Below are positions 1 through 29,100 of a stretch of 42,740 bases of DNA, piece by piece. The stretch is from IMG/VR virus record IMGVR_UViG_3300007346_000056, positions 1-42,740 of that record. The stretch is one strand, 5' to 3'. The position numbers and the translations under genes are program-made. Numbering within the stretch: the first letter of the stretch is position 1; each line of letters starts with the position of its first letter. The notes under the pieces are model-generated. The model had not been told where the DNA came from and searched no databases. It was given only the letters and a program-made list of their open reading frames with translations. The stretch comes from a virus.

Positions 1-43
1 AATCTGCATATGTATCAATGTTAAAAATATCATACGCACAAGG
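1..43. repeat. 43-bp exact direct repeat, copy 1
   Basis: Identical to 313-355 at an offset of 312 bp, which is exactly 104 codons. It lies inside the repeat-module gene and encodes the PCAYDIFNIDTYAD segment. Copy 1 may extend beyond the left edge of the window. Confidence 0.95.
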
Positions 44-691
44 GCCACTTGCAACTATGTCATGTTCTTTTCGATTTACAGGAAATCTATACTCTACTTC
101 TTTCTTGCTTAATGGAACATGTTTACTACACAGTAATACTCCGTTGTACAAATCTTCTTCGTTTACTCTATGAATAAAAGCATGGTTTTGTTTTCTGTCG
201 ATCTGATCATGATGTGATATGTAGAACGTGTTAACAAGCTCTATATCAATGCCAATATTAGCACTACTCATCCAAAACATATCTGTTTCACTAGTTTCTA
301 ATGCAGACAAATAATCTGCATATGTATCAATGTTAAAAATATCATACGCACAAGGTCTGCTTGCTTGTATATCAACTTCTTTTTTATTAACAAAAAATCG
401 ATGTTGTAACTCTTTAACTGACACTTCTGAAGACTTTGGTATTAGACAGACTCCATCATAATATTCATTGTTTTTGAATACATGTATGTACTCTGTACTC
501 CATGCATCTGGCTCGTAATCAAAGTTAAAGTCATTGTTTATTATAATGTCGGGCCAAACCACCCAAAACATTTTTGTTATACAAATACGCTTTGCATCAT
601 CTAGTGTGTTTGCATGTTTTAAAAGCGGAAATCGTTGTTTTGCAGACTTCCACTGTTTGTTTTTTTCGCCAATAAAGATTATATCATACAT
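1..691 (-). CDS. Repeat-module protein of marine myophages, 3' end outside window
   Basis: The frame runs from an ATG at 691-689 and is open through the left edge of the window, giving about 230 visible residues. It opens with MYDIIFIGEK and KQRFPLLKHA, a start resembling the glycosyltransferase-like proteins of marine T4-like phages. It continues with KMFWVVWPD and a module of roughly 104 residues. The module contains PCAYDIFNIDTYADYLSALE and is followed by a second copy (MFWMSSANIGIDIE, then VNRKEHDI, then PCAYDIFNIDTYAD). The second copy ends at the window edge, so more repeats may follow. No catalytic motif is certain. The DFNFDYEPDAW stretch resembles segments I associate with phage GT-like proteins. 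No Shine-Dalgarno site precedes the ATG, and the predicted sigma70 start point falls almost on the start codon. Function is unknown; a carbohydrate-related role is only inferred. Confidence 0.7.
   Translation of the reverse strand, partial: MYDIIFIGEKNKQWKSAKQRFPLLKHANTLDDAKRICITKMFWVVWPDIIINNDFNFDYEPDAWSTEYIHVFKNNEYYDGVCLIPKSSEVSVKELQHRFFVNKKEVDIQASRPCAYDIFNIDTYADYLSALETSETDMFWMSSANIGIDIELVNTFYISHHDQIDRKQNHAFIHRVNEEDLYNGVLLCSKHVPLSKKEVEYRFPVNRKEHDIVASGPCAYDIFNIDTYAD
313..355. repeat. 43-bp exact direct repeat, copy 2
   Basis: Second copy of the repeat at 1-43. The flanking sequence has diverged (gccacttgc against tctgcttgc just after the repeat), so only this core is identical at DNA level. 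Confidence 0.95.
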
Positions 692-697
692 ACAGTA

Positions 698-726
698 GTT
701 ATAACATATTTTAATCAACAAGTCAA
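698..726 (-). promoter_or_regulatory. sigma70-type promoter of the repeat-module gene
   Basis: On the minus strand TTGACT (726-721) is followed after 17 bp by TATAAC (703-698). The expected transcription start is near 692-691, which is the ATG itself. The message would therefore be leaderless or nearly so. The promoter is back to back with the late box at 738-745. Confidence 0.55.
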
Positions 727-737
727 GAACAGAATGT

Positions 738-748
738 GATAAATACTA
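738..748 (+). promoter_or_regulatory. T4-late-type promoter of the plus-strand tail-fibre gene
   Basis: GATAAATACTA differs from the T4 late consensus TATAAATACTA only at the first base. It lies 20 bp upstream of the ATG at 769, with the purine-rich ribosome site gaagaggaa between. It overlaps the alternative GTG start at 736, so that start would lie upstream of the transcription start. Confidence 0.75.
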
Positions 749-768
749 GAGAAGAGGAACCAACAAAA

Positions 769-2184
769 ATGACCGATTTTATACCAGGTGAAGCATACCG
801 ACTAGATATTATTACAGCAGACGAGACAGTGATTGTCGACAGCTGGCAGGGACAGATTAAAGCAAGTGTTGTTGATATCAATGGTATTATACTAGTCGAT
901 GTTGATACTGGAAAATTATACGGTACGTTGGTTGGTACCATTGAGGACGCTAACGGCAATACTGTTTTATCCTCAACAGGTGATCTAACTGGTAGTGTTA
1001 CTGGTAGTGTATACGACAACGACGGTGCTTTAGCATTTGATGGCGAAAACGGAACGGTTATTGCTAATGTTGTTGGCAATGTTGTAGATAGCGAAGGCGA
1101 TATTATTGTTAATACCGGAGCAAGATCTATTATAGCAGATAGTATTACTGGCTCATTTTATGGTGATTTAACAGGTAGTATCACAGCAGATAGTGTAATA
1201 TACGGTACATTTAATGGCGATTTTAACGGTACAAGTTATGGAGACTTTTTTGGGGATACTACAGGTACACACACAGGCGATGTAGTAGGTGATGTAGTAG
1301 GTGATGTAACAGGTAATGTCACAGGCAATCTTACCGGCGAACTACTTGCTATCCAGCCAGGCGATGATATTGCTACACGTCTTACCGGACATAACAACAC
1401 TGGCGGATACAATCAGTGGGAGTTTTACGGTGGACTTGCACACCCGGTGTATCCTGCAGAAGATGCAGTTGCACGTGGTCCTATAGTAAATATTGGTGCA
1501 ACTAGAGCCGACACAGAAGTAAGAGCCAACTTAAATCATTATGATGGCACGCCAGTGATGAGATTGTCTTTGGAGAGTTTGCCGACTTACAAAGCCGATT
1601 TCATAGGAAGACTTGTTGGAGCAGTTGCATACGATACACAAGGCGATAATGGTATTACTAATATTATATCCGGTGGAAACAATGGTACACTTATTAGTAG
1701 CGTAAATGATAAAATAAACATTGGTGGCGAAGATGACGAAGTAAATATTATTGCTGATAGTCTAACTATACAAACGGATTCAATAGACTCACTTTCGCAT
1801 AGAGGATCAAATAATAACAAAACATCTCTACTAAACAATGACGAACTTTTAAGTATTGAAAGTTGGGGTTACAACGGAACTGAATACAAACGCGGCGGAA
1901 TGTTTGGATTTAAAGTTGACGGCACACCTGATGCAAACGGAAATACCATACCAACAGGGTTTGGTGTTCAGCTGAGTACAGCAGCTAACACACATGTTAC
2001 TAATACAGCAAACAGACTAGAGTTTAATAACAAAGGTGTATTAGAAGTTCCAGTATTTAAAGCAAGAGGCACTACATTTGCTGACAGAGATAGTATGGCA
2101 GCAGAAGAAGGCATGATATTGTTTAATACTAGTAACAAAAAGTTTCAAGGTTATGACGGAACTTCTTGGGTTGACTTACACTAA
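769..2184 (+). CDS. Tail-fibre-like protein with Gly/Asp/Thr hexapeptide-type repeats
   Basis: A 471-residue protein begins MTDFIPGEAY. The frame is open back to a GTG at 736, but that codon lies in the late promoter. The ATG at 769 has GAGGAA at a good distance, so I choose it. The N-terminal half is a string of short beta-type repeats (LTGSVTGSVYD, GSFYGDLTGSI, GDVVGDVVGDVTGNVTGNL), as in phage fibre shafts. The middle has a 'YNQWEFYGGLAHPVYPAED' segment. The C-terminus, EEGMILFNTSNKKFQGYDG then TSWVDLH, is a typical end for marine T4-like fibre and structural proteins. It is the only virion gene in the window on the plus strand. Its role as an adhesin is inferred from the repeats and the promoter type. 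Which T4 fibre gene it replaces cannot be told. Confidence 0.75.
   Translation: MTDFIPGEAYRLDIITADETVIVDSWQGQIKASVVDINGIILVDVDTGKLYGTLVGTIEDANGNTVLSSTGDLTGSVTGSVYDNDGALAFDGENGTVIANVVGNVVDSEGDIIVNTGARSIIADSITGSFYGDLTGSITADSVIYGTFNGDFNGTSYGDFFGDTTGTHTGDVVGDVVGDVTGNVTGNLTGELLAIQPGDDIATRLTGHNNTGGYNQWEFYGGLAHPVYPAEDAVARGPIVNIGATRADTEVRANLNHYDGTPVMRLSLESLPTYKADFIGRLVGAVAYDTQGDNGITNIISGGNNGTLISSVNDKINIGGEDDEVNIIADSLTIQTDSIDSLSHRGSNNNKTSLLNNDELLSIESWGYNGTEYKRGGMFGFKVDGTPDANGNTIPTGFGVQLSTAANTHVTNTANRLEFNNKGVLEVPVFKARGTTFADRDSMAAEEGMILFNTSNKKFQGYDGTSWVDLH
1276..1335 (+). repeat. Five tandem 12-bp units in the fibre gene
   Basis: Units of the type ggtgatgtagta follow one another in frame (1276, 1288, 1300, 1312, 1324) and encode GDVV/GDVT/GNVT/GNLT tetrapeptides. 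The third-to-fourth junction carries aacaggtaatgt, a 12-mer that also occurs in the tandem repeat of the minus-strand fibre gene at 15384-15419. Confidence 0.85.
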
Positions 2185-2199
2185 AAAATATGCTATACT
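2171..2199 (+). promoter_or_regulatory. sigma70-type promoter of the ligase/acyltransferase cassette
   Basis: TTGACT (2171-2176), a 17-bp spacer and TATACT (2194-2199). The -35 box overlaps the last codons of the fibre gene. The predicted start near 2206 leaves a leader of about 30 nt with AGGAG at 2224-2228, 8 nt before the ATG. Confidence 0.7.
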
Positions 2200-2236
2200 A
2201 ACATCATAATAAAGTTTCTTTAAAGGAGTTTAAAAT

Positions 2237-2455
2237 ATGTTGTTTGAATGGAATCACTTGAAAAAAGCAAACGCTAACTATTTTACTCATTGTTTTATTG
2301 CAATATGTTATAGTTTTCTAGGACTTGGTGTTTTTGTAATGGGTATCCTACATGCATTTTTTCCATTTATGTTTGGATTTACACCTTACAAACTTGCTAA
2401 GAAAATAACCGACGGTACTGAAAAAAACTTTCCTGCTTGTATAAAAGAAGAATAA
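2237..2455 (+). CDS. Small membrane protein, DUF6356-like
   Basis: A 72-residue protein. A cytoplasmic-looking start (MLFEWNHLKKANANYFTHC) is followed by a hydrophobic region at about residues 19-50 (CYSFLGLGVFVMGILHAFFP). A charged tail (KLAKKITDGTEKNF) ends the chain. The HCF, LHAFFPFMF and TPYKLAKKI pattern fits my recollection of the DUF6356 family of small bacterial membrane proteins, whose function is not known to me. It has a strong ribosome site, and its stop codon directly abuts the ATG of the ligase gene, so the two are probably co-translated. Being first in the cassette, it may place or help the two enzymes at the membrane; that is inference. Confidence 0.65.
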   Translation: MLFEWNHLKKANANYFTHCFIAICYSFLGLGVFVMGILHAFFPFMFGFTPYKLAKKITDGTEKNFPACIKEE

Positions 2456-3517
2456 ATGAAAATATTTATAGATGGTGAACAAATATCTCAACAGTGGATC
2501 AGTGACTATACGTTAAGTAGTCCTGTAGATTGCTATAGTGATAAACCCGACTGGGAACAAAATGTACTAAAACTGTTGCACAACTGGTATTCAAATTCTG
2601 GATACAGCTACGGTTATAGAGGCGATAAGTTTTTAAATCTTAGTACAAGCGGAACAACCGGATTTCCACAACATATTGGTCATTCAAGAGAAACTATCGA
2701 ACAAGTTGTTGATTCTAATATTAAAATACTAGGCTTAAATAAAAATAGTAAAATACTCAGTTACTACAGCCCAAGAGGTATTGCGTTTAGTGTACTCAGT
2801 GTATACATAGCATTAAAGCTCGATTGTGATTTGTACATTGAAACGTTTAAAGGCATAGACTATATAAATCGTGTACACGATATACGTCCAACACATACAT
2901 TATTATTACCTAATGTTTGGAAAACGTTACACAAACATCCTAAATGGAACACATTAGATTACAGTAGTTTAGAAACTGTCATCACCGGCAGTGATTTTAC
3001 ACCAACTGGTATGTTGGACGAACTACGTGAACATAACCCTGGAAAAGTTTATAATGTATACGGTAGTACCGAGGTGCCGCCAATGGTGTTGTACAGCGAA
3101 GAAGAAAATACTTATACAATAAACAACATTGCAGAAGGTGCTGAGCTAGATATTGTAAATAGCCAGATTGCCTGTAAATGGAGTAGCCAATCAGATATCT
3201 GGATAAGTGGCGATTGTGTTGAAGGAGATAGGAATCGGTTTACACTAAATGGGCGTGTTCCAAATATGTTTAAACAAAATACAGTACGTGTGTATCCTGA
3301 ACAAATCGAAAAAGCAGCAGTTGCAGCAGGAGCAGAACTTGCACTGTGTCAACAAGTAGGAAATCATTGTATATTATACTATACCGGCAATATAGAAGAT
3401 ATAAAAACATTTAATGATAATCACAAATACATTCCACGATTTAGACTACGAGCAGTAAATAATATCGAGATAGACGATAATCTAAAAAAGATTATAAGGA
3501 CACAAAAGTTTGTATAA
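2456..3517 (+). CDS. Compact AMP-forming ligase (ANL superfamily, acyl-CoA synthetase-like)
   Basis: A 353-residue protein carrying the ANL adenylation motifs in order. These are the phosphate-binding loop LSTSGTTGFP (62-71), the VYGSTE motif (201-206), SGD (251-253), GRVPNMFKQNTVRVYPEQIE (266-285, the hinge and A8 region), and LKKIIRTQK near the C-terminus. K345 sits where the catalytic lysine of the GK(I/L)xR motif is expected. Family members usually have 500 or more residues. Here the region before the P-loop is only about 60 residues, so most of the N-terminal subdomain is missing or reduced. The P-loop lysine is Q72 and the usual hinge-loop glycine is N275. The known family reaction is activation of a carboxylate with ATP to an acyl-adenylate, followed by transfer. 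The acid and the acceptor here cannot be read. The gene abuts the membrane-protein gene upstream and overlaps the next gene by 8 bp. Confidence 0.8.
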   Translation: MKIFIDGEQISQQWISDYTLSSPVDCYSDKPDWEQNVLKLLHNWYSNSGYSYGYRGDKFLNLSTSGTTGFPQHIGHSRETIEQVVDSNIKILGLNKNSKILSYYSPRGIAFSVLSVYIALKLDCDLYIETFKGIDYINRVHDIRPTHTLLLPNVWKTLHKHPKWNTLDYSSLETVITGSDFTPTGMLDELREHNPGKVYNVYGSTEVPPMVLYSEEENTYTINNIAEGAELDIVNSQIACKWSSQSDIWISGDCVEGDRNRFTLNGRVPNMFKQNTVRVYPEQIEKAAVAAGAELALCQQVGNHCILYYTGNIEDIKTFNDNHKYIPRFRLRAVNNIEIDDNLKKIIRTQKFV

Positions 3518-4106
3518 ACTAGAGAAATATAGCAACCAAGATCTTACACAGTTTTACAAAGATGCAGAAGCTAAAGGATTCTATAATAATAGCAGCAAAG
3601 AAATGCTGCTTGATTATATTGAAAAATACAACGATACCCAAATGTTTTTATTGTACTGGAATGATAGAGTTGTCGGTACAAGTGTGTGTCACAGTTTAAA
3701 AGAACTTGGAATATTAGGCAAAAACGCATATCGTATTAGTGCTAGAACTTGTATAATCAATGACTACATAGGCGGCACACGGGCACACAGTGTACACAAC
3801 TACAGACACTCTCCTATGAACCACTGGACTAGCCAGATGCTTACCCCTGTTTGTATGTACGCTGTAGGGCTAGACAAGCCGCAATATATTAGTACTAATA
3901 CAAACGAAGTAGGTAGTCAAAGTAAAGTACACCGAATTTGGTCTAAAATTATGCACGATCAAGGATATTTAAAAGATCCAATCGAACTAGAATACAAAGG
4001 ATCTTTTCAAACATTCTGGCGTGTTGATGTAGAGTTTTATTTGAAGAAACTTAATGAAAACATTTGGCCTGAGACCAAAGAAGCCTTAGATATATTTCTT
4101 ACATAG
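3510..4106 (+). CDS. GNAT-like acyltransferase, TTG start
   Basis: A 198-residue protein. The start is TTG at 3510, supported by AAGGA at 3496-3500 and by the 8-bp overlap with the ligase gene; no in-frame ATG is closer. Residues 45-62 (MFLLYWNDRVVGTSVCHS) look like the central strands of a GNAT fold, where a side chain contacts the acyl donor. Later segments (STNTNEVGSQSKVHRIWSKI, then KGSFQTFWRVD) resemble phage proteins annotated as acetyltransferases. The classical R/Q-x-x-G-x-G/A pyrophosphate loop is not obvious, so the assignment is by overall pattern. Following an acid-activating ligase, it could move the activated acyl group to an acceptor. The end overlaps the convergent radical SAM gene by 21 bp. 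Confidence 0.5.
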   Translation: MYKLEKYSNQDLTQFYKDAEAKGFYNNSSKEMLLDYIEKYNDTQMFLLYWNDRVVGTSVCHSLKELGILGKNAYRISARTCIINDYIGGTRAHSVHNYRHSPMNHWTSQMLTPVCMYAVGLDKPQYISTNTNEVGSQSKVHRIWSKIMHDQGYLKDPIELEYKGSFQTFWRVDVEFYLKKLNENIWPETKEALDIFLT

Positions 4107-5459
4107 ATCAAAAAAGTCTGTCATTTCTGGAAACACTTCTTTGTGATTGACATTACGTCTACGTCCTTGCTCTTCAAAGAAGTTGTGAAAATCTCTACGG
4201 CCTTGAATAACTTTGTCTAATGGATATTCAGTAGACTCCATGTAATCAACAACACGTCTAAACTTTTCATACTCAATAGTACTAAACGCATCTTTGCGAT
4301 TATCATCTGTATTCTCTTTGATAAACTGCAAATGATCATGCATATAACTCATGTAGTTTTTAGGCAGGATATTAATATCGTACTGCAACGGTTCTTTCAA
4401 ATGCGGTGTGTCAAATCCTAATCGTTGCCATCTGTGCGTTTCTACATCATTATATTTTTTGCGCCATTCAAGAATCTTTTCAAGCAATGTACGGAATGTA
4501 GTGACACTGAAGATGTTAAATGTAATCATAATAACCATTGGTGCTTCGCAGTTGCGCATAAAATAATCCAAGTTGCGTTCAAACACTTCAATGTCTAATC
4601 CATCACGAATATACTCAGCACGTTTTCCCCAAGTATCAATACTTGTAAACATTTTAAAACGTCTAATCTTGTTGTTTGTCAACAAGTCATTCACACGATT
4701 TGTAAACTTTTCTAACTGTTTTGGTTTGCCGCCTAAGTTGCTGTTGCAGTTTAGTTCTAGTTCTGGTTTAGGGTCTGCATCCAGCATATCAAATAGTTTA
4801 TATGTGCTCTGCTGTATTGTAGGCTCGCCGCCTGTAATGCGTAAAATATGTAAGTCTTTACTTAACTCTGGCCACCACTTCCAAAATGCATCTAAATACG
4901 GATTGTTTTGTTCTTCGAATATTTCAAACCAGTCAATATCACATCTGTGATTCTTTACGTTTGTGTAAGGCCCGTGTTGCTTGATCTCTTGATGATATCT
5001 GCTGCTGGCTTTTGGATGACAATATCCACAGCGGAAGTTACATTCATTACCAAACGAGACTTCCAAATATTCTGGATTAACATCAAACTCTGCGCCACCT
5101 TCTTTGACAGCTTTCAAGCGTTCTTTAAAGAAGATAGTTTGGTTGCGTTGTTTTCTATCGCTAACATAATCTTTGCCCATTGCTTCAATCTTCCAGCAAT
5201 AGTTGCATCCACTAGGTTGCTCACCTTTCATCATAGCAGCACGTTCTGCTTTTTTCTGTACTGTATTATGAATAGCACTCGGATTAGTTAGAAGTGGCGC
5301 TGCATCAATCTTGTGCGGTGCAGGATGATAACAACTGTGTGTCTCTCCTGTTTGGAAATAAATGTTTGCGTGATACCATTTAGCAAAACAAAACGTAGGA
5401 GATATTTCCTGCGTGATTTTATCAATCCGCTTGATTTCTTCGCTTTCGCTGCGTTCCAT
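4086..5459 (-). CDS. Radical SAM protein with N-terminal cysteine region (twitch-type)
   Basis: A 457-residue protein. The radical SAM cluster motif CNFRCGYC is at 140-147 (C140, C144, C147), and the SAM-binding GGEP is at 210-213. Ahead of the core are four more cysteines: C24 and C43 (in THSCYHPAPHK) and C85/C88 (SGCNYCWKIE). They could hold an auxiliary Fe-S cluster. The radical SAM core runs roughly 130-360, followed by an Arg/Asp-rich C-terminal part. The family generates a 5'-deoxyadenosyl radical from SAM; the substrate is unknown. Marine phage homologues are, to my recollection, labelled 'twitch domain-containing radical SAM'. Its start codon overlaps the stop of the GT-like gene (TAATG), so it is the last gene of that operon. 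A role in modifying a sugar or a peptide is inferred from the neighbours. Confidence 0.85.
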   Translation of the reverse strand: MERSESEEIKRIDKITQEISPTFCFAKWYHANIYFQTGETHSCYHPAPHKIDAAPLLTNPSAIHNTVQKKAERAAMMKGEQPSGCNYCWKIEAMGKDYVSDRKQRNQTIFFKERLKAVKEGGAEFDVNPEYLEVSFGNECNFRCGYCHPKASSRYHQEIKQHGPYTNVKNHRCDIDWFEIFEEQNNPYLDAFWKWWPELSKDLHILRITGGEPTIQQSTYKLFDMLDADPKPELELNCNSNLGGKPKQLEKFTNRVNDLLTNNKIRRFKMFTSIDTWGKRAEYIRDGLDIEVFERNLDYFMRNCEAPMVIMITFNIFSVTTFRTLLEKILEWRKKYNDVETHRWQRLGFDTPHLKEPLQYDINILPKNYMSYMHDHLQFIKENTDDNRKDAFSTIEYEKFRRVVDYMESTEYPLDKVIQGRRDFHNFFEEQGRRRNVNHKEVFPEMTDFFDLCKKYI

Positions 5460-6382
5460 TATTGCTCTCTATCTAAGAATTGTTTGCTGTTATCTCGTGC
5501 TGGATTTTGATATACTGTTTTAAAGAATAGACTTTGATTTCCATCAAGTGGTTCAGAAGCAATGGGCAACTCAAGTTCATCTATTAGCGAATATCCAAGT
5601 TCAACAGTATTGGCTTCCATTTGATCTTCATCCATGTCTTTAGTATCCCAATACTCATTAAGCCACTCAAAATCACGTACATTTACAAAGTCCCAATCTG
5701 TACACATTGTTTTGTACAAGCCTTCTCGTGCGCCGTATATTGCCCAACGTCCGTTTTCTACATCTGCGCCTACCATCAGCCAGATATACAACCGATGCAA
5801 GTTCTTCCAGTGATTTTTATGGAAGTCTTCTACACTAACACGCATACCTTGGTCAAGTGCCATTTTAACACCTTCTCTAAATCCAGCACGCCATGCTTGA
5901 TGAGGTGTAGCATTATTCATAATAGTACTATATGTACCATTCATCTGAATATATTGTGTATCCCAACAAAAATCTACTTGTGCATGTGGGTTATTATCAG
6001 GCGCATTTTCGTGTGTACGCATGTTCAATACATGCTGTTTAGGCCAACACTTGATGCCACCATTTCCGTATGTGAGGTTATTGATAGTATTAAGTGCAGT
6101 CCAACTAATGACTTTATTAGTCAAGTCAGTGTTTTCATCAAAGTCCATTGTTTGAGACAAAAACTTTTCATCAATAATATTATCGCCGTCGATTGTAATA
6201 AACCTATCAGTAGTTGATTTGTTAGCGGCTGCTTTGTGTGCGCTGTCACTGCCTTTAACACCGTGTACACGTTCAGCCCATGGAACTTTCTTACACAAAT
6301 CTGCATAGTTTTGTTCTGCATTTGGCTCATCGTAGCTTAGATATATAATGTCACAATCTATAACTCTAAAAGTATTAACCAT
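5459..6382 (-). CDS. Glycosyltransferase-like protein (marine phage family)
   Basis: A 307-residue protein. The N-terminus IIYLSYDEPNAEQNYADLC and the segment ERVHGVKGSDSAHKAAA match a family common in marine T4-like phages. A DxD-type motif (FITIDGDNIIDEKF, D65/D67) is where a GT-A fold would bind the metal and nucleotide sugar. The pattern NTINNLTYGNGGIKCWPK follows. Later, VEDFHKNHWKNLHRLYIW and YGAREGLY are also family-typical to my eye. The reaction, donor and acceptor are unknown. It overlaps the upstream gene by 8 bp and the radical SAM gene by a TAATG. Another class of nucleotide-binding enzyme cannot be excluded. Confidence 0.65.
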   Translation of the reverse strand: MVNTFRVIDCDIIYLSYDEPNAEQNYADLCKKVPWAERVHGVKGSDSAHKAAANKSTTDRFITIDGDNIIDEKFLSQTMDFDENTDLTNKVISWTALNTINNLTYGNGGIKCWPKQHVLNMRTHENAPDNNPHAQVDFCWDTQYIQMNGTYSTIMNNATPHQAWRAGFREGVKMALDQGMRVSVEDFHKNHWKNLHRLYIWLMVGADVENGRWAIYGAREGLYKTMCTDWDFVNVRDFEWLNEYWDTKDMDEDQMEANTVELGYSLIDELELPIASEPLDGNQSLFFKTVYQNPARDNSKQFLDREQ

Positions 6383-17186: not shown

Positions 17187-17194
17187 TATTTATC
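17187..17194 (-). promoter_or_regulatory. T4-late-type promoter box
   Basis: GATAAATA followed by CATTATAGGAAC on the minus strand. The TAA inside the box is the stop codon of the giant 4545-residue gene. It should drive the 200-residue protein and the fibre genes downstream. Confidence 0.75.
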
Positions 17195-20100
17195 GGGGTA
17201 GCGATATTGTTTTGTCTGTTATAAATTTAGCTATTTGATTTGTACTATTTGCTAGGGATTTTCCTGTATCGTTCCATATTTTTCCTGTTCTGCGAACAAC
17301 TTCAATGAATATTCCATCTGCAGGAGCATCGATATAATCTGCAAGTGTTAACACTGTGATTGTACTACCGTCGACTGTTATTATATTTTCAATAGTATAC
17401 TCTGGATCTATTGTTACATCTGCTTCAGGCGAATCTTGATCTACTGTTTTGTCAAATGTTACAATATTATCTTTGCGCAACCTAGTGCCGGCTAAAAATA
17501 CATCAATCTCGTTTACACTAGTTGGAATAAAATCAAGTATAAACTCTTTGGTACTAGAATCACCAATAAACATAGTTTTAGCTGTTTCGTCTTTATAAGG
17601 AATATTTTCTTCTATGCCTTGTCCTTGTACCTTTGTTGCAACTGGATATTGCTCTTTTATACCTGTTCCTAGCGTTCCTCTTCTTAGTTGTCTAAGTAGA
17701 TTGCCGTCAACACTAAAGTATTCGATACGTTCTTTGTCAATCCAAACAACTCCCGGAGTGCCAAGTGCTTTATTTGGTTCTTGTATTCCTGTGCTGTCAA
17801 CTAACTGAATAGATAAATCATAATAGTTTAATGGTTGTTGCAACTTATACTCGTTATCTTTGTTTAAACGCTTGAAGTGGAATCTGTTTAACATATCTTT
17901 AAAGATACGATATCCAAACTTAGGATCGCTTGTTAATGCGGTAAACTGCAATACTTCAACTTTGTCATTTGATGTAACTTTGTTGTAAAGTTGAACGCCA
18001 GATCCACTTGCATCAAGTGAGTAATCGTTTTGTGGAGAAAGTAATATTCCGTTTTTAAATACCCAAACATAGTTTGCACTTAATGCAGGTTTTTCAAGTT
18101 TGATAAATCCTCTACTCAACAAGTTTTTATCAATATAAAACTGTGTTCCTGCTGGTGCTTGATTTGTATTCCAAACAATATCATACGAGTTTCTTTCAAA
18201 TCCGTTTATATCATGGTTACTGAATACATAGATATCAACTGTTTCCCAATCAGCAGGTGCTTCTGTTAATGATAATACATCAGTTTCAATAAGTTTAATA
18301 TCACCAATGATTGCCTTTGTGCTATCGTTTTCCCAACTTGCTACAATCTCTGGTGTATCATCAATACTTTTTAGCTGGAATAGTTCTCTAATATATCCTT
18401 GAAGTTCTATTGTTAACGTCGAACCCGATCTGCTAAACTTTTCAACACAAGCAATAACTGTAGTACTATCATCAGATAATTCAAAACTTATATCTTGTCC
18501 AACTGCTGGATCATTAACTTCTGAACCATTTTGTATTTGTACTGTTGTGTTTAAAAAGTAATATTCTGCATCTCTGATAATAAAGATTTCTAAAGTATCT
18601 CCAATCAATCCTACATTGTTGTTGAGAAGTTGTACTCTGCCATTTGCAGTGTCATAATAATAATCAAGTACATCGACAATAGAACCATTAATATATAATA
18701 CAACGTCAGTGTTTCTAACTGCTGTTGTATCTTCAAACTGCCATCTATCAATGTCGTAAGCACGGTTGCTATCTATTGTATATTTTTTTCTATAACCTGC
18801 ATTTAAGAATCTACCATCACCACGTTTTACTAAAATATTGTGCGATAAAGGTTTATCAATAACTGGTAGTGCAACATCATTTGTAAATCTATGAACTTTA
18901 TTTGTACCATCGGTTACAAAAGTATTGTCGATTACCATTTGACTGTATTGATTTACGCTGCCGTCATATATTGTATATCCAATGATTTTTCCAGCAGTTA
19001 CTTTGATAGGAAACTCTAGTTGGGCATTACCAGTATCTGATTCTGTAAGTCCGTAATCTGTTGTATCGTTTTGTAATACGCCATTTATTGTTACAAACGA
19101 ACTCAATCCAGACTTCCATGTGATTGGCAGGTTATATATAAACGTATCACCAGTAGAAACAATATTATCACTATCGATTAAATCTACACCGTTGGTTCCT
19201 ATTGTGAGTATCGAAAGATTTTTTCCTTCGTCTAATGCTGTACTATCGTTTAAACTTATGAACTTGTTTTCATAGTCGACATTTAAATCGTCATTATCAA
19301 TAATGTCGCCGTCAACTTTTACAACCAATGTAGTGTTTGTTTGTGGAAAGTTGTCAAACTCCCATTCAATAGTTGTACCATCTGTGATATAGTTTCTAAC
19401 ACTAATAACACCCTGGCCGTCTACACTTCTATTATAAACTTGTATGTCTACAGTATCAAGCACCTGTCCTGGTACTTGCTCTTCTGGACCACCACTGGTA
19501 GTTTCTGTAACAAAGCCGTCGCCGTCAACAACTATGTCGCCAGAGTCGATACCTTTAGCAGTTGTGTATTCAAAGTTTCCACCTTGTAAACTTACATCGT
19601 ATGCTGTTGATTCTGGAGTAAAGCTACCATCGCTTGTTGATTTTCTAATGATCACAACATCGCCGTCTTTGGTTTCAATAACATCGCTGTCTAAGAATAC
19701 GGTATTTGTAATATTATCGCCTTGCGGTGACACCATTTTTGCATTTGGATTGGCTGTTACACTACTTCCATCGTAAAACGGGTCGTCTATTCTTACATTA
19801 TTAAGATATACATTGTATGTTACACCCGATTCCAATACACTGCTCAATGATATTATTTGAGTACTGCCATCTAATGTAATGATTTCATCTTCATAGTTAG
19901 TGTCAAACGTATCAAAATCAATACCATAAGAGTTTGCATCAAACCCAGTATTTTCGCCAAAGCCGATACTATCCATTTGAACGCCACCGTAGTCAACACC
20001 ACTCATTAACTGACTTAGTTCTTTGCCTGGCATGTTTGTAGTAGGCTTGTAAAAGAAGTTTATTCTATCTTCAGCAGTTAACAGGTTGGATGATTTTTTA

Positions 20101-23100
20101 TAGTTTATAACAACAGCAGCATTATTTGCAGGTGCAGTAGTAAATGTTATTTTACCACGATATCTATCAAATGTCTTGGTTGTATCAATAATATTTGATG
20201 CTACAAAATCACTTATTAGCTGTGGCTCCCCTGCTACAGTTATTGATATATCTGCACTATTTGTACTCAGTGGCCATTTTAAACTAAACTCAGTTAAACC
20301 GCCATTACCGACAAATGTTTCTGTTTCATTTAATGTGGTAAAATAGTATGCACCAGCAACTCTATCAAACTTCATCAACATATGCGTGGATCTGATTACA
20401 CTGTTTCCTATCTGTGCATAAACAACTGCATCAACTCCGTCTTCTGTTAAACTTCCGTTTATTGTTACGGTTGGAGTTGTAAAGTATTTTGCTCCAACTG
20501 TATCAACTTCAATGTACTGAATTGATCCACCACCTATATACGCAAGTCCTTCGAGTGTTGGACCACCTCCTCCGCTAACTGTTACATTTGCTGTGTCAGT
20601 ATATCCACTGCCGCCATTGTAAACAACAAACTCTGTTATTTCAAATCCAACATTGTCTAACCAATGTTTTTGTGGGTATGTAGTTGTGGTATCATTTGTT
20701 CCAACAAGACCATTGTTGAAGAACTTGATAGTTTCGCTGATAATCTGGCCACGTTCTGCATCGTAACGAGGCGGCAAATCAAAATCAGTAACACTAGTTT
20801 GTGTTGGTTCTGTTCTATTATACGAACTGATATATTCTCTTATTTTAGTACTATATGGTTTTACTTCTTCAATATAGTCTTGATAGTTAGGAAGATTATC
20901 GTTTTGATAAGTTACTTTTTGTGTAAGCTCACCAACATTGTGTTTTGCAACTACAAAACTAGATTTAAAAATCCAGTCTAAATCAACCTGCTCACTCATT
21001 GCATATCTAATGCTACTAAAGAACAGTTTGTTCCATTCAACTTCTAGTTGATCAACAAACAAGTTATCTCTTAGTGCATATAATATTATTTTTATTTCAT
21101 CAGTTGGCTCACTGTCGTACAACGAAATGTCATAGATTATGTTATCAAATCCGACTGCATCATTTTGATACAATGTATTGCTAAACTCTACTGTGCCATT
21201 TTGTCTGCCTACAACTTTATAGTTAATAGTATAATCTACTTCTAGTTGATTGTCAATCTTTTCTAATAGCATCCAGCCGCCAGAACCGATATTTTCAATC
21301 TTAACAGTATTTCCTAGTTTATCGTCTAATCCAGCAAGTTCATAACTACCATTTATAACAAAATCAATAGATGTAACTTCGCTGTATCCAGTTGCATACC
21401 AGTCAACATACTTCCAATATCTATTAACATCATAGCTTTGAATGTAGTTTCTAAACCATTCTTGTGTGGATGATATCCAGTTGTACACTGCCCACAATCC
21501 GCCTACTCCTGTATCAGTTGTTACAAGAACACTAAACGGACGTACAATAAGTGTAGTATCACTTAAATAGTTTTTGCCGCCATTTACAACTTCAACTTCA
21601 ATAACTTGTCCAAGATTGTTGATGTAGGTTTTTATTTCTGCGTCAACACCCTTACCTTCTATAGTTACAGTTGGACCATGTCGCTTGCCAGATGTATAGT
21701 TACTGTCAATATACCCTCTGCCTGGTTCTGTAATAGTTGCGCCTGTAATAGTTCCGTCAACAATAATAGGTGTAAGAGTTGCTTGTTTAATTTTTGCAGT
21801 ACCGACAAATCTCAACAAACTTTCTGTATCAATCTGTGTGTCCCACTCATTGCTAAACTTGCTTGGTGCAGTCTCAGTTTGGAACAGCGGAGAAATATCA
21901 AAATCATCTACGATTGTATATTGTGATAATACTCCGTTTACTCTTTCAATAACTTGTTTTAGTGCTTCGGCTCTATTAACAAATATAGTTTGATTTGGAT
22001 TATTTAAAATGCCATAACGTTGAGCAACACTGATATTTAAATCAGGCAAAACTTTTCCGTTTTTATCATACCCTGCTAAACTGTCAACCCACTTGTCAAC
22101 AATGTCATTGTTTGGTTTGCTTGATGCTAACCCTTCGACAACCAATGCATATTCACTATGAATGTTTTTGTTTTCTGCATTATCTTGAATATAATAATCT
22201 ACGTGCAAGATAGTATCTTTGTCTTTTACTAGATTTTTTACATTGTGTAAGGCAAACTTTTTACCATCGAGTAATGTAATATGTCTGTAACCTTGACCTG
22301 AAGGATCTGCTATCAAGTTTGCAACATCAAACGAGCTGATCTTTCTGCCATATGTATCAGGCAATGTATTTTTATTTTTAACCCAGAAATAATACTTTGG
22401 TACAAAAACACTTGCTACACTATCGTACACTCTTGCTCTCACATATGAATCATCGCTGTATAAAGTTTTTCCACTTATACTGCTGGCTAATCCTTCAGTA
22501 GTGTCTGCTATTTCATCCCATTCACTTGGTAATAAATCACTTTCAACCCACTCGTACACATCTACACTAAATCCAGGAATAATCTGATTCCATGTATTGG
22601 ATTTATATTGTATACTTCCTTGATATGGATTGTACCATTTTATAGCATCAAGGTCCCACCATAGTTTTCCAACTTGCTGTTTACCCCAAAGATCTGCTAC
22701 ACCAGTGTCTCTAGTGCCAACATTATAAACCGCTGGATCATAATAAGTCTTATAACTAAGTTCTTGTTCTGCAGGGCCAGCAATCCTTCCTCTAATAGGG
22801 TCTATATAATCAAGGTATGTGATCAAATCATTTGTATTTGTATCATATAGCCACACACCTTTGATTTTATCAATATCAACATAGCTGTCGCCTTGGCTGT
22901 TGATATTCCAAGCGTTGGCATTTAAGTCTGTTCTATGATCCTGAATCAGTCCTGTTTTGTCATCAACTACTGTTCCTATCGAAATAACATACAAATGGTT
23001 TCTATTTAATACACTCAATATATCAGATGAATCTGATATATCTACTTGTGAGTAAAGTTTTTCAGCATATACCAACTTGTTGTTTAGTGTTTCGTAAACA

Positions 23101-26100
23101 TAAACTTGTCCGTTGTCTTTGATTGTATCATAAATGCTTGTTGCTTTATTATCAAAATCTGTAAGTTCATTATCAAATGTTACATATGATTCCGTATCAC
23201 CGTTGCGACTTGTTATAGCAAGTTTATTAGAATTAAAACTTACATTAGTACCAAATCTTTCATTCTTTTCACCATTAGGTGCAAGCAATATTTGATCTTG
23301 CACATATGTTCCGTTTGTAAGTTTATATACATATACTGCGCCATTGTAAATACCATTAGCATTTGATAACTGTGCGCCTATTGCTATTTTAGATCCATCA
23401 TCGTTTAGACTTAGTGTAGATCCAAATGCTTCTTCTTCGGTTGCAGGATCAATATTTTCATCAAATACAAATCTGCCATTTGTTTTTCTATATATTGCTA
23501 TACGATATTCGCCGCCAGTTTGAATGCCGCCTAATGCTAATACTTCGCCGTTTTTACTAATATCATAACTTGAACCAATAGCAAGTGCATTTAAAAACTC
23601 ACTACTATCGTCATCAAGTAAGCCGCCAGTGCTATCATCAGTTTGTGATGAATAAGGAACATAACCCAAATAATCAACATATGTATCAAGTACATCCCAC
23701 TGACTATTGTTAAAAGGATTTCCTGCAAGTACGGTTGTATTTGCTCGACGAAGTTCGCCTTCATAATAAACAATGTTATTAGGAATATATTTTGAAATAC
23801 TTTCCCATTCGCCTTTGTAGTTCGAATCTCTTGAATATACATAAGATGTTACATTAGATTGACCTTTGTTGTTAACAAAATAAACACGGCCGTTATCTTT
23901 TAAACTTCTAATGATAATGTTGTGTTGGAAATCGCTTGGTGAAGCTGATTTGATTGCAATACCAAACTGTTCGTTTGTTGACGGCTCTGGACTTAAAATA
24001 ATATCAACTAAAGTAAATGATCCATCGATAAGTTTTTTATAAATGTAAATCACACCTTGATTTGCATATCCAAGACTTGCTCCAGAAGTATCTGTAACTA
24101 TTAGATCTGCTAGTTCCCAATCTTGGCTTAATAGATTAATAGTACTACTTTCTGCTGTAACATCAACTAGAGCTCTCCATAGTGTTCCTCGCTGACTTAC
24201 ATAGTCTCCAGCTAGATAACTTTCGCCTTCAGTAAATACACCCTTGTATCTTGTTTTAACATTTGCAGCAGTTGGCGCACCAACATACAAATATTGTCCG
24301 TTGTCTGTTATTTCAACACTTGTACCAAATGCACCTGCATCATGATGATTAGATAATGGTTCTAATGTTTGCTTTAGTGTAAATGCACTAGCTTCACTTC
24401 CACGAGTGTATATATAAACTTTGCCATCGTCTATGTCTGGTGTTCCAACTGCCAAAGTAGTATTGTTGTTACTAACAGCTAAATCAGATCCAAACTCTCT
24501 ACTACCAGTTTCGGGTGCTACAATACTTTGTTTAAAGCTACGTATAATATCACTATCGTATACTCCAAATGTTCCAGTGCCAATATCGTCAATCCATACT
24601 CTGTCATTATCGTCTAAATCGTAAAGTTTTGTAATATTGTTTATACCCTCAGGTGACGATACTCTGCGTGACGATAGTTCTGATACTATTCCAATAGTAC
24701 TGTCTGACAAGTCAATAAAGTCTTCGGTTATTGGGTTATCCAGTTGTATTTCAAAATCAGTATATCCAATATTTTGTACAATCCAAAAGCCATTAACTTC
24801 TCCATTGACATTATTAAATCCAACAATATCACCTTCTGCAAATGTAATAGGCTTACTAAAGTTTGCTTTAAATCCTAGCTGTGTTTTTTCAATAGACTGA
24901 ATAGATACCGGAGATACAACATGCTTGTAAACATTCCACGATTGAGAATCTTTTGGTACCCATATGTAACTTCCAATATCAACACTATCGATATCTAGAA
25001 CCAATATATCATTTTTTGTAGTTGTTAAAAAGTTTACTTGGTCTAGTTTAACATACCCGGCAGTTTTAGTGTATTCTGCACTACCAGATGTTAATGGCAA
25101 AGATGTATGTGCATAATCAGTTGGAGAAAGATATACATCTTTTCTCGGATATTGATAAACCAAATCTGTGCGTGTTGAATCTACTGTTTCAACAAACTCT
25201 ACAAGTTGTGGCTCTATTCTAAACTGGCTTTCGTCTAGCTTAAATTCAACTTCGTCGTAACTTGTGGTTGCACCGTATCTACCAACACGTATTGCCCATT
25301 CTTCATACAGTTCAACACTATCGGAATCTGCTGAACCAAGTTTGTCAAATAGCTTTGTAACAGCATTTGATGTACCTTTGTCTTGTATAAATCCCTGATA
25401 GAACTTGTATTGACTAACATCGTCTTGAATAATATTAGCAAGATATTCACGCTTTTGATATCCGATAAGATGCTGAGCCAATCTTTGTTGTTCACTATCA
25501 AAGTTATCAGTATCTAAATCATAAAAATCTGCAAACTGATTTGCTCTATAATCCCAGTTTGGTTTTAATTCACTTACAGGTTTACTATCTAATCTGCTCC
25601 AGTTTCCATAAATGAAATCTTGTGTGCCACTGTGTGTAAATCTAGCTGCATAATAAAACTCTTTGTATTTTACTAGTTCTGCAGTTTTATAATCTTTATA
25701 GCTGGTCCATTCAGTAACTTTAGCGTCATCGTATATAAATCCTGGAATATTTAAACTACCATTCCAATCGTCTGTTCTATATCCAACAACTTTCAACCGC
25801 TCTTGTCTGTATCCTGTTTCAGGTACATAGATTGTATCGTTGAATACTGTTGTGTTATCAACTAACACAAGATGTTCTTTTTGTATCAGCGGTAGTTTGA
25901 GAAGATATATTCCGTCATCCTCTGATGTTAAACTAAATCTGTTGGTGTTGTCTCTGTAAATACTAGAACGGTTTTTACTAATCACATTTCCGTTTTCATT
26001 TAATACTGCAAATCCATAAAGATTGCTGTGTATATTATCAACTACATAAAAGTCTTTTTCAAACTCGACTTGATTTGCTAATGGTGATAATGTTAATGTG

Positions 26101-29100
26101 CTAGTGTTTGCCCAGTTTTGTGTTATCCAAAACAAAAACTCTTTACATGCTAGTTGCCAGTTTTCAACAGATTCGGTTGCTTTATTAAAATATTCAAACT
26201 TAAATCCAATATCTTTTAAATATTGTTGATAGCCCAAAAGAAAGTTAACCACTTGTTGTTCATCATTTAATATTGTTCCGTAATCAAGTGTTAGTATTTC
26301 ATTGGTAAATGACTTTCTAAAATAAGCGCCTCTGCCGCCATTTTCAGGTAGACTCGGCAATGGAGTGTACAGACTCAAATTAAAATCTGTTCCAGTTGTA
26401 TGGTTTGCATTTACTCTATAATATCTATCGTTGTATTCTACAAGTTTGCCAGCAACTAAAAACTTGTTTTCAGTCCACTGTATATAACTTTCGCTTATTC
26501 CTCCAATGTTTACAAACGGATCATTTGCATTTTCTCTTGGATTACGATATTTAAAAGATGGAAGATCTTTATCATATCCACTTATGCGATATCCTTTTGC
26601 AGTTCTTTCAACTATTACACCGCTATAAGTTGCTACATCTTGAGGACTAGAAGTTCTCAAAACAATATTATAGTTTTCATCAGGTACAAATATATTTCCT
26701 TTGTTTAACGGAGTCTTACTATCCAATACTAGTTTTAGTTTGTTCTTTTCAGCAAAGCCAGCAAGTTTAAATCCTATTTTATTGCTTAATAGTTTTAGAT
26801 TATTCACATATGTAGTATATGGATACAACGAGTCTGCATTGATATATTCACTAATATAGTTTAAAAATCCTGCACTTACAGCATTTTTTATCTTAGGAAA
26901 TATCAAATCTGTTGTGGTTATTCTTTTATTTGTAGCAGTATAAACCAAGTTTCCAGCAATATCGCGTTGAATTCTACTTCTATCAAATCCAATACCCATT
27001 GTGTGTGCAGGGCGTGTTATCAAAGCAGCAATCATCAAACTAAACGGATATCCGCTACTTCTTCTCCATGCTGCTTCAGTTGGTGCTTCGTCGCCAAACT
27101 TAAATAAGTTTTGACTTTGCGATGCATAACTGAAGTTACTTACATATCCGCTTTCTAAAGGCGATACTAACTGTCCGTTTTCGTTGACTGGAATATGTTT
27201 TAATAAGTTGTGTCTAATATATTTTTTGTTTCTTAGTACTGTTTTACCAGGTTCTCTAATAACTCCATTCTGTAAATCAGTCCAAAGTATCAAGTTGTTG
27301 TTTGTATAAGGTGCAGGTCCATAAACACTTTCCCACCAAGTTGGTTGTATTCCATAACCCAACATTTCCCACGGATGTGTGTGTGGCCGATCAGTATCAA
27401 ATGCTTGTCTGTAAATGCCTCTCCAAAATCCTGGTACTGCTTCGTTTCGGTCATTTGTACTTCCAGTGTAGTTATAAGTAAAACTTTCACCTTGTACTAT
27501 AAAGTCATTTTTAGTATAATCTGAAATCTTAGCAATATTGGTCCAGTCAATAAAATCTTTGATAATAATATTATTGATTTCTTGTGATGTAATCTTTGTA
27601 TTTCTATCAACACCTCCGATAATGTCGTTTATGTCAAATATGTCTGGATTGTAATCAACTTTTAGATTATTAAAAATACGCTTTTCCATTTCTAAAATCA
27701 AATCGTCTCTATAATCATCATAAGCAAGTGTAATACTGCCGTCGTGTCCTCTAATAACTTTTTGTGGAGTTTGATAACTTGAGTCAATAAATATTTCAGG
27801 AACGTATGCCGGGAACATACCTATTTTTGTAGGTGTTGGTGGAATAAAACTACCTTCAGTATTATCGTATTCGTGTATAGTTAATATATCGCCATCGGTC
27901 AGTGTTGCAGAAATGTCTACAAATCCAGTTCCAGTAAATGTATAATCTCTATTAAACACAAGTTGTTGATTATTTAAATACACATACAATGCTTTATTAC
28001 TGATAGCCGATTTATTAAAAACTGTTGAGAGAGCATAAACTGTTAATCTACTATCAAGTATTTCATATTCAATCTTTTTGCTGCCGCCGGTGGCTGCCAT
28101 ATCAGTACTGTAAAACGGAGTAGTTGTAGTCTTGGTACTATTAATCTCATTGAAGATAAAATCAACATATTCTTTTACTGTTCCGTTAAATGATGTTTCA
28201 GTTGCAGTTTGTAAAAACTGTCTTTTAAACTTGGTATATTCATTTAGTGCATATCTAATAGCTGCAACAACATTTGAGTTTTTATTAACCAGATGATAAA
28301 GTGATAGATTTAGAGGTCCGCTGTGTTGAACAAACTTTCTACCATATTTGGTAACTGGGCCTAAATCTCTTAGATTGTTTAAGCCAGGTTGAACTCCTGA
28401 AAATGCTGCAACCTCAGAAACAAGTCCTTCAACATGATCATTTACTTCGCCTAGTGTAAACTCTGTAATATTTTTATTAGACGGGTTTCTTTCAAAGTTA
28501 TGAGGAATCTCATAATAACCATTGTCATTTTTGTTTGCCGAGCTTTTGGTTTTAATAACAACAATATCAGTAAACCCAATATCCTTAGAAAGTACAACTT
28601 TGGTTGTTTTATTTTCATTGACTATTTGGTAATCAGGTTTATATTCATTGTTAACATATACTTTGATTTCTAAATCAGTTAACTCAGCACTATTATTGTA
28701 AACATCGACTGGAAATCTATTTGTATAATCTTCGCCTGTGTATTTTCTTATAACATATTGACTGCTTTTTATATTTGCTTTTTTCCAAGCATTAGTATAA
28801 GATATAACTTGATTATTATATTCTTGTAAAAAGAAAACATCACTGCTTATAGTTGTAAAAATATTATTAACTTTGTATTTGTAATCTTCTGCAAGCAATG
28901 CAAAATCAAAAACAATGTCGCCAATATTTACAAAGTTTTTGTATGTAAGAGGAAATCCAAGTTCGGTATCATTGGCACCTTCACCGACTCTATAACTAAA
29001 AAGTCTGTTTCCAGCAAAATCTGTACTGTCATAAACTGTATTATCTCCGAGGCTGTTTCCGTTGCTGTCAAACAAATCAAACTTTGGTGCTTGATTTAAA

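Follow-up and report, generated by a model that had tools for sequence, protein, structure and literature searches.

The virus record IMGVR_UViG_3300007346_000056, analysed here over its whole length of 42,740 bases (the window), carries a tightly packed cassette in which a promoter precedes genes for a small DUF6356 membrane protein, an ANL-type adenylating enzyme (the ligase) and a GNAT-fold protein (Table 1). There is an even chance that this cassette is a small phage-borne module for acid activation and transfer, expressed from its own host-type promoter, in which the GNAT protein forms an amide and to which a halogenation step is added in cousin phages. We infer the chemistry of the pathway overall; adenylation is its best-supported step, and amide formation by the GNAT protein would be the natural next one.

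A first-pass annotation, made from the bare sequence, had placed a promoter and three open reading frames (ORFs) here, and a check of ORFs and promoter recovered all of them at those positions. Its interpretation as an activation and transfer pathway gains from the ANL and GNAT folds, the gene linkage and the promoter, and is incomplete in leaving out a halogenase that is present in 16 related contigs. Three outcomes had been named as fatal to it, namely a ligase fold without an ATP pocket or lid, an unconserved gene triplet, and a third protein without a GNAT fold; none of them occurred.

Table 1. Elements of the cassette in the window (aa, amino acids).
Feature	Positions	Strand	Basis
Extended -10 promoter, sigma70 type	2171..2199	+	TTGACT-N17-TATACT, TG before the -10
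DUF6356 small membrane protein, 72 aa	2237..2455	+	Pfam match, hydrophobic region
Mini ANL adenylating enzyme, 353 aa, shortened N-terminal part	2456..3517	+	AMP-binding profile, motifs, fold
GNAT-fold protein, 198 aa, TTG start	3510..4106	+	Structure matches; gene overlaps ligase gene by 8 bases

The adenylating enzyme

The ligase matches the AMP-binding family with 58.4 bits (cut-off 29.9), its residues 64-254 aligning with positions 170-378 of the 384-position profile. The motifs read from it in the first pass are all present (A3 as STSGTTG at 63-69, YGSTE at 202-206, SGD at 251-253 and the lysine K345), and most motif positions are invariant in an eight-row family alignment. The P-loop pattern occurs in all 37 distinct ligases of more than 300 aa, and each of the A5, A7, A8 and A10 patterns in 36 of them. 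The C-terminal lysine in its KIxR context (A10) is found in 36 of the 37, the exception being the ligase of contig L078, which ends at the contig edge. The ligase of L184 lacks three of the motif patterns and looks interrupted, and that of L020 is split into two ORFs.

The N-terminal part is short, as had been proposed. In a profile alignment with Escherichia coli MenE, ligase residue 63 pairs with MenE residue 141, which leaves about 78 residues fewer before the P-loop; in the short ligase forms (322-336 aa) the P-loop starts at 34-36, corresponding to about 106-108 residues fewer. In this comparison, neither the window ligase nor the short forms have the full-length ANL region in front of the P-loop.

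A structure model of the ligase (predicted local distance difference test, pLDDT, 67; predicted template modelling score, pTM, 0.67) matches ANL structures with a best Foldseek E-value of 8.9e-13. The highest Z score was obtained with AlmE (19.8; root-mean-square deviation, rmsd, 5.5; 303 aligned residues); MenE 5x8f_A gave 19.3 (rmsd 4.6; 296 aligned). The fold thus agrees with what the first-pass annotation expected, except that the lid domain is poorly modelled, with pLDDT below 50 at residues 268-314 and 319-353; its assignment rests on conserved motifs. Fold and motifs together strongly suggest that the protein is an ANL-type enzyme catalysing ATP-dependent adenylation.

The GNAT-fold protein

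The third protein matches no Pfam family above the cut-off, the only hit being FeeM (E 0.03; 14.5 bits against a cut-off of 27). The FeeM profile also matches six of 11 GNAT members weakly, at best with E 0.0047 and never above the cut-off. The structure model of the third protein (pLDDT 68, pTM 0.70) retrieves 62 chains at E <= 0.001 in Foldseek, the best with E 1.4e-5. The closest structure is PA3270 (8gxj_C; Z 12.1, rmsd 3.2, 155 aligned); the acyltransferase domain of NcdE (Z 10.4, rmsd 4.1, 162 residues) and FeeM (Z 9.3, rmsd 4.4, 158 residues) match as well. As modelled, the protein has a GNAT fold, in line with its earlier description as a putative acyltransferase. Matches to TALE-repeat entries of the PDB were attributed to chance; their best stretches lie mostly in a variable loop and none passes on its own. 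A second weak match to the GNAT profile (E 7.5e-6), with one internal stop, is located at 23425-23913 on the minus strand of the L120 record (G013).

Conservation and linkage

Viral contigs were scanned with the ligase, the GNAT protein, two more distant ligases and the halogenase, and were annotated by profiles with one locus counted per contig. The ligase was found in 68 contigs, the window included, and a GNAT gene lies in the same gene run in 52 of them. The triplet DUF6356-ligase-GNAT without a halogenase, for which conservation had been the suggested check, is present in 16 contigs, among them the window and L020 with its split ligase. The cassette genes abut or overlap across contigs according to the locus annotation. 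Their order varies (DUF6356-ligase-GNAT, ligase-halogenase-GNAT, GNAT-ligase-halogenase or halogenase-ligase-DUF6356) while the linkage is kept, down to ligases with 42% identity. When the 58 ligases of more than 300 aa are clustered by single linkage at 80% identity, 11 clusters result, the two largest with 29 and 15 members; the contig counts are not independent events, because the ligases group in few clusters of near relatives. Six of the 68 contigs (L028, L032, L158, L164, L166 and L167) end just past the ligase and cannot be judged for linkage.

The DUF6356 protein scores 33.5 bits against a Pfam cut-off of 24.4 and is hydrophobic between about residues 15 and 50, which bears out its first-pass description as a DUF6356-like membrane protein. 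Its gene directly precedes the ligase in 22 contigs and follows it in four; in L172 and L173, which are cut within the ligase, it stands after the ligase, and in L082 it is the sole partner. Since the profile exceeds its cut-off in only eight of 30 hand-picked records, DUF6356 appears to be optional. Two adjacent copies of DUF6356 are present far from the cassette in the L004 record (G015, 43354-43744), and none precedes the ligase in the L004 cassette.

The cassette genes are under purifying selection. Simple pairwise Nei-Gojobori estimates, several of them from pairs with high synonymous divergence (dS), gave ratios of non-synonymous to synonymous substitution rates (dN/dS) of 0.06-0.15 for the ligase, 0.03-0.08 for DUF6356 and 0.34-0.38 for the halogenase in divergent pairs. 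For the GNAT gene the ratios were 0.06-0.43, with two close pairs at zero and one not computable.

Halogenases of cousin phages

The window contains no halogenase gene. A homologue of halogenases dependent on flavin adenine dinucleotide (FAD) occurs in 16 contigs with a full-length ligase and directly adjoins the ligase in 15. A gene for a halogenase of 498-506 aa lies between ligase and GNAT in seven contigs; three (L087, L088 and L184) have the order GNAT-ligase-halogenase, and L154, L155, L157 and L159 have the halogenase directly before the ligase. The order in L170 is halogenase-ligase-DUF6356, which recurs in L171 except that two genes separate the halogenase from the ligase. Three of the seven halogenases located between ligase and GNAT were scanned and match Trp_halogenase with 240.8-260.9 bits (cut-off 21; E 3.5e-71 to 3e-77).

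One halogenase homologue was compared with solved halogenases by alignment, from which the positions of a Lys and a Glu, presumably catalytic, were judged. The GxGxxG, Lys and Glu patterns are found in 23, 22 and 23 of 23 distinct halogenases, respectively. All 23 have GWxFxIxL and none has WxWxIP, a motif that is also missing in some characterised halogenases according to the available text of PMC8407142. The Trp4 motif and the EAT[IVF][PS] form of Trp1, given for groups A and B of free-tryptophan halogenases in the accessible part of PMC8269204, are each absent from all 23. Because the Trp4 motifs of free-tryptophan enzymes are lacking, the substrate is probably not free tryptophan.

Closely related loci differ by the halogenase. 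Between the window and L009, identity is 97% for the tail-fibre-like protein, 90% for DUF6356, 91% for the ligase and 98% for the radical SAM protein, whereas L009 carries a halogenase together with a GNAT protein only 57% identical to that of the window. L021 and L004 differ in the same way, and the exchange of the halogenase-GNAT block in L009 and L021 may be a single event, because their halogenases are nearly identical. A GNAT type similar to that of L009 is also found without a halogenase, beside the shorter ligase (L117, L122). The halogenase belongs to cousin phages, and its link to the ligase points away from plain lipid acylation.

In three further contigs (L191, L192 and L201), a convergent gene pair for a 195-aa protein and a 222-aa ligase-like piece (PF00501, 74.7 bits) adjoins the gene of a more distantly related halogenase. 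The alignment of the L191-type 195-aa protein to the GNAT profile covers 170 columns (hhalign probability 88%, E 3e-7), while two unrelated control proteins gave 0.05% and 0.06%. The 222-aa protein (L191:7734-8402, minus strand) keeps the P-loop and a YGMTE region and is missing the C-terminal part; its adenylating ability is doubtful.

The promoter

The sigma70-type promoter proposed in the first pass is present in the window, where its -35 element overlaps the final codons of the tail-fibre-like gene, and has a counterpart upstream of all 53 cassettes that directly follow such a gene. Every one of these sites matches in at least 10 of 12 positions, and 52 of the 53 have the TGn extension. 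Among 3000 random 95-mers of the window, 3.2% reach at least 10/12 and 0.13% also have TGn. Promoter-like sites are not enriched in window positions 1-6000 (24 observed, 23.8 expected), and a looser scan of both strands of the whole window gave eight sites of at least 10/12 with TGn, including the cassette promoter. Part of this conservation could reflect constraint on coding sequence, as the -35 overlaps tail-fibre-like codons in most printed examples; in L110 and L117, an intergenic TTGACT copy is present where the coding copy is altered. Another promoter-like sequence lies on the minus strand (726-698; TTGACT-N17-TATAAC, also with TG ahead of the -10) and points towards the window's left end, to the divergent glycosyltransferase-like gene there.

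Proposed pathway and alternative explanations

In the proposed pathway, the mini ANL enzyme would use ATP to convert a carboxylic acid into an acyl-adenylate, as its motifs and fold strongly suggest. The acyl group may then be kept as acyl-AMP or passed to coenzyme A (CoA) or a host carrier protein; these routes are proposed because no phage carrier protein was found. The GNAT protein would move the acyl group to an amine to give an amide, with an amino acid, an amino sugar or a surface component as possible acceptor. In relatives, the ligase-adjacent FAD-dependent halogenase probably halogenates the acid or the product, and DUF6356 might, speculatively, hold the enzymes or the product at the membrane. 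A more tentative extension, which we regard as rather improbable, is that a minimal adenylating enzyme, a GNAT protein without the standard CoA loop, a membrane protein and the halogenase of cousins yield plain or halogenated N-acyl products in the course of infection without a dedicated carrier protein, and that swapping of the halogenase-acyltransferase block changes the product.

Several observations weigh against such a pathway. The structure models of ligase and GNAT protein are of moderate confidence only. The standard CoA-binding loop of GNAT proteins has the pattern [QR]xxGx[GA]; it is missing from all 35 distinct GNAT proteins, so that acyl-CoA may not be the donor; the loop region has low pLDDT. 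The parts of the cassette are also separable. No GNAT gene was recognised in 10 ligase contigs (L082, L084, L154, L155, L157, L159 and L170-L173, of which L154, L172 and L173 are cut); six of them (L154, L155, L157, L159, L170 and L171) have a halogenase with the ligase, and L084 has none of the partners. Conversely, 10 contigs (L135-L144, L144 being cut at its end) have a GNAT gene and neither ligase nor halogenase, and searches of the whole records of L136, L139, L143 and L141 found no ligase. In L132, a TauD-family dioxygenase gene (4929-6008; 57.2 bits) precedes the GNAT gene in the usual place of the ligase. Halogenase and GNAT occur without a ligase in L182, L185 and L187, and 13 contigs have a halogenase with neither. 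When 17 whole records of these kinds were searched with the ligase profile, the only two to match were those of the L191 type.

The genes that follow the ligase in L154, L155, L157 and L159 (195-206 aa) and the genes of L170 and L171 (146 and 157 aa) were considered as GNAT candidates and rejected, as profile comparison gave probabilities of only 0.05% and 0.13%.

An unlikely alternative is that the acyl-adenylate itself is consumed, ligase and GNAT protein together acting as an amide synthetase that needs neither CoA nor a carrier protein. The missing CoA-loop pattern would fit, as would the position of the amide bond synthetase McbA at the top of the ligase's Foldseek list; MenE and other CoA ligases, however, match the ligase equally well, and McbA is not known to need a GNAT protein. 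The carrier-protein domain PF00550 was found in none of 21 records, all possibly fragments, while the control search detected it in 11 of 14 genomes. This agrees with the first-pass statement that no acyl carrier is visible and would suit a carrier-free synthetase, but carrier proteins exist in the host. Of the same 21 records, most of them chosen for carrying a GNAT gene, 19 gave a match to the GNAT profile.

Somewhat less probable still, the genes could be independent cargo sharing a variable site at the tail-fibre-like gene, with the GNAT protein acetylating some protein of the host or phage and the ligase unrelated to it. The site is indeed variable, each of the three (GNAT, halogenase and ligase) can be found in the absence of the other two, and protein-modifying GNATs are predicted in the available part of a review of jumbo phages (PMC7824862). 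Against this, the linkage survives different gene orders and settings, overlapping reading frames and ligase divergence down to 42% identity, and the halogenase co-occurs with a matching GNAT type between conserved neighbours.

Decoration of the virion, for example of its tail fibres, in place of a free or host-surface product is improbable. The cassette mostly has a tail-fibre-like gene on one side and glycosyltransferase-like and radical SAM genes on the other, yet it has its own conserved sigma70-type promoter whereas the phage encodes a late sigma factor, and ligase-halogenase loci such as those of L155 and L170 have no tail-fibre-like gene nearby. Acylation of a nucleic-acid base by the GNAT protein is very improbable: Mom-type GNATs are described in jumbo phages in the accessible text of PMC7824862, but a Pfam scan of 11 GNAT members gave no Mom family, and no recognised base-modification gene lies beside the cassette.

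Relation to known systems

The ligase shares its fold and the A3, A5, A7, A8 and A10-type motifs with ANL enzymes such as MenE, 4-chlorobenzoate CoA ligase, FadD8 and McbA. It differs in the position of the P-loop, which is at residue 64, or at 34-36 in the short ligases, compared with 142 in MenE, and its structural matches have 10-19% identity. Short viral AMP-dependent ligases of similar fold exist in uncultured Caudovirales (BFVD A0A6J5L770, 214 aa; A0A6J7WHT9, 359 aa), with 16-27% identity to the cassette ligase when compared as proteins only. The GNAT protein shares its fold with PA3270, the NcdE domain and FeeM at 6-11% identity.

Phage halogenases, and a proposed cluster for a halogenated metabolite in jumbo cyanophages, are already described in the available parts of PMC7824862 and PMC10452541. 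The halogenase of the cousin phages belongs to the same FAD-dependent family as cyanophage halogenases, including VirX1 of Syn10 (available text of PMC8407142 and PMC10452541), with 24-28% identity among the matches listed. The cluster of the jumbo cyanophage S-SSM6a likewise includes a halogenase, together with oxygenases, and is predicted to make a small product; the accessible text of PMC7824862 describes it with carbamoyl transferases and a methylase and names no ANL ligase or GNAT.

The literature search, in which subscription papers and preprints are poorly covered, gave no paper recognised as describing this gene set, in agreement with the first-pass view. Phage halogenases are known, and the ligase-GNAT-DUF6356 set, as predicted here, was not recognised in the literature. 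Among 50,697 phage records, neither the GNAT nor the DUF6356 protein has a match. For the ligase, two records of human-gut phages (19-21% identity) were the only matches, with none in cyanophage records. A cyanophage link for the cassette was therefore rejected, although the halogenase is related. A bacterial origin of ligase and GNAT was rejected because scans of bacterial genome contigs with exact short-peptide patterns, which distant relatives could escape, revealed no close relative of either. A plasmid search returned 49 records; the 10 matches listed are all ligases, at 21-28% identity.

With the cassette, some phage halogenases would gain a likely partner in a pathway and thus a route to their substrate, and the ligase is an unusually small adenylating enzyme to study. 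If the proposed pathway holds, phages would make their own amide product in the infected cell and alter its chemistry by recombination.

Genomic setting

The window contains T4-type baseplate and late sigma factor genes. Its large baseplate protein has its best matches at 35-37% identity in jumbo phages including Phosso, Atu_ph07 and SCTP-2 (best 15 of 62 records), which makes the window a probable genome fragment of a jumbo-type myovirus. In most of the cassette contigs, the cassette is flanked by a tail-fibre-like gene and by glycosyltransferase-like and radical SAM genes. Next to the baseplate genes of the window is one uninterrupted ORF of 4545 aa (17190-30827, minus strand). At least the first 40 bases of the window reappear at position 313; this repeat (1-352) may be internal to the glycosyltransferase-like gene, as related proteins such as that of L003:2393-4372 hold repeated blocks.

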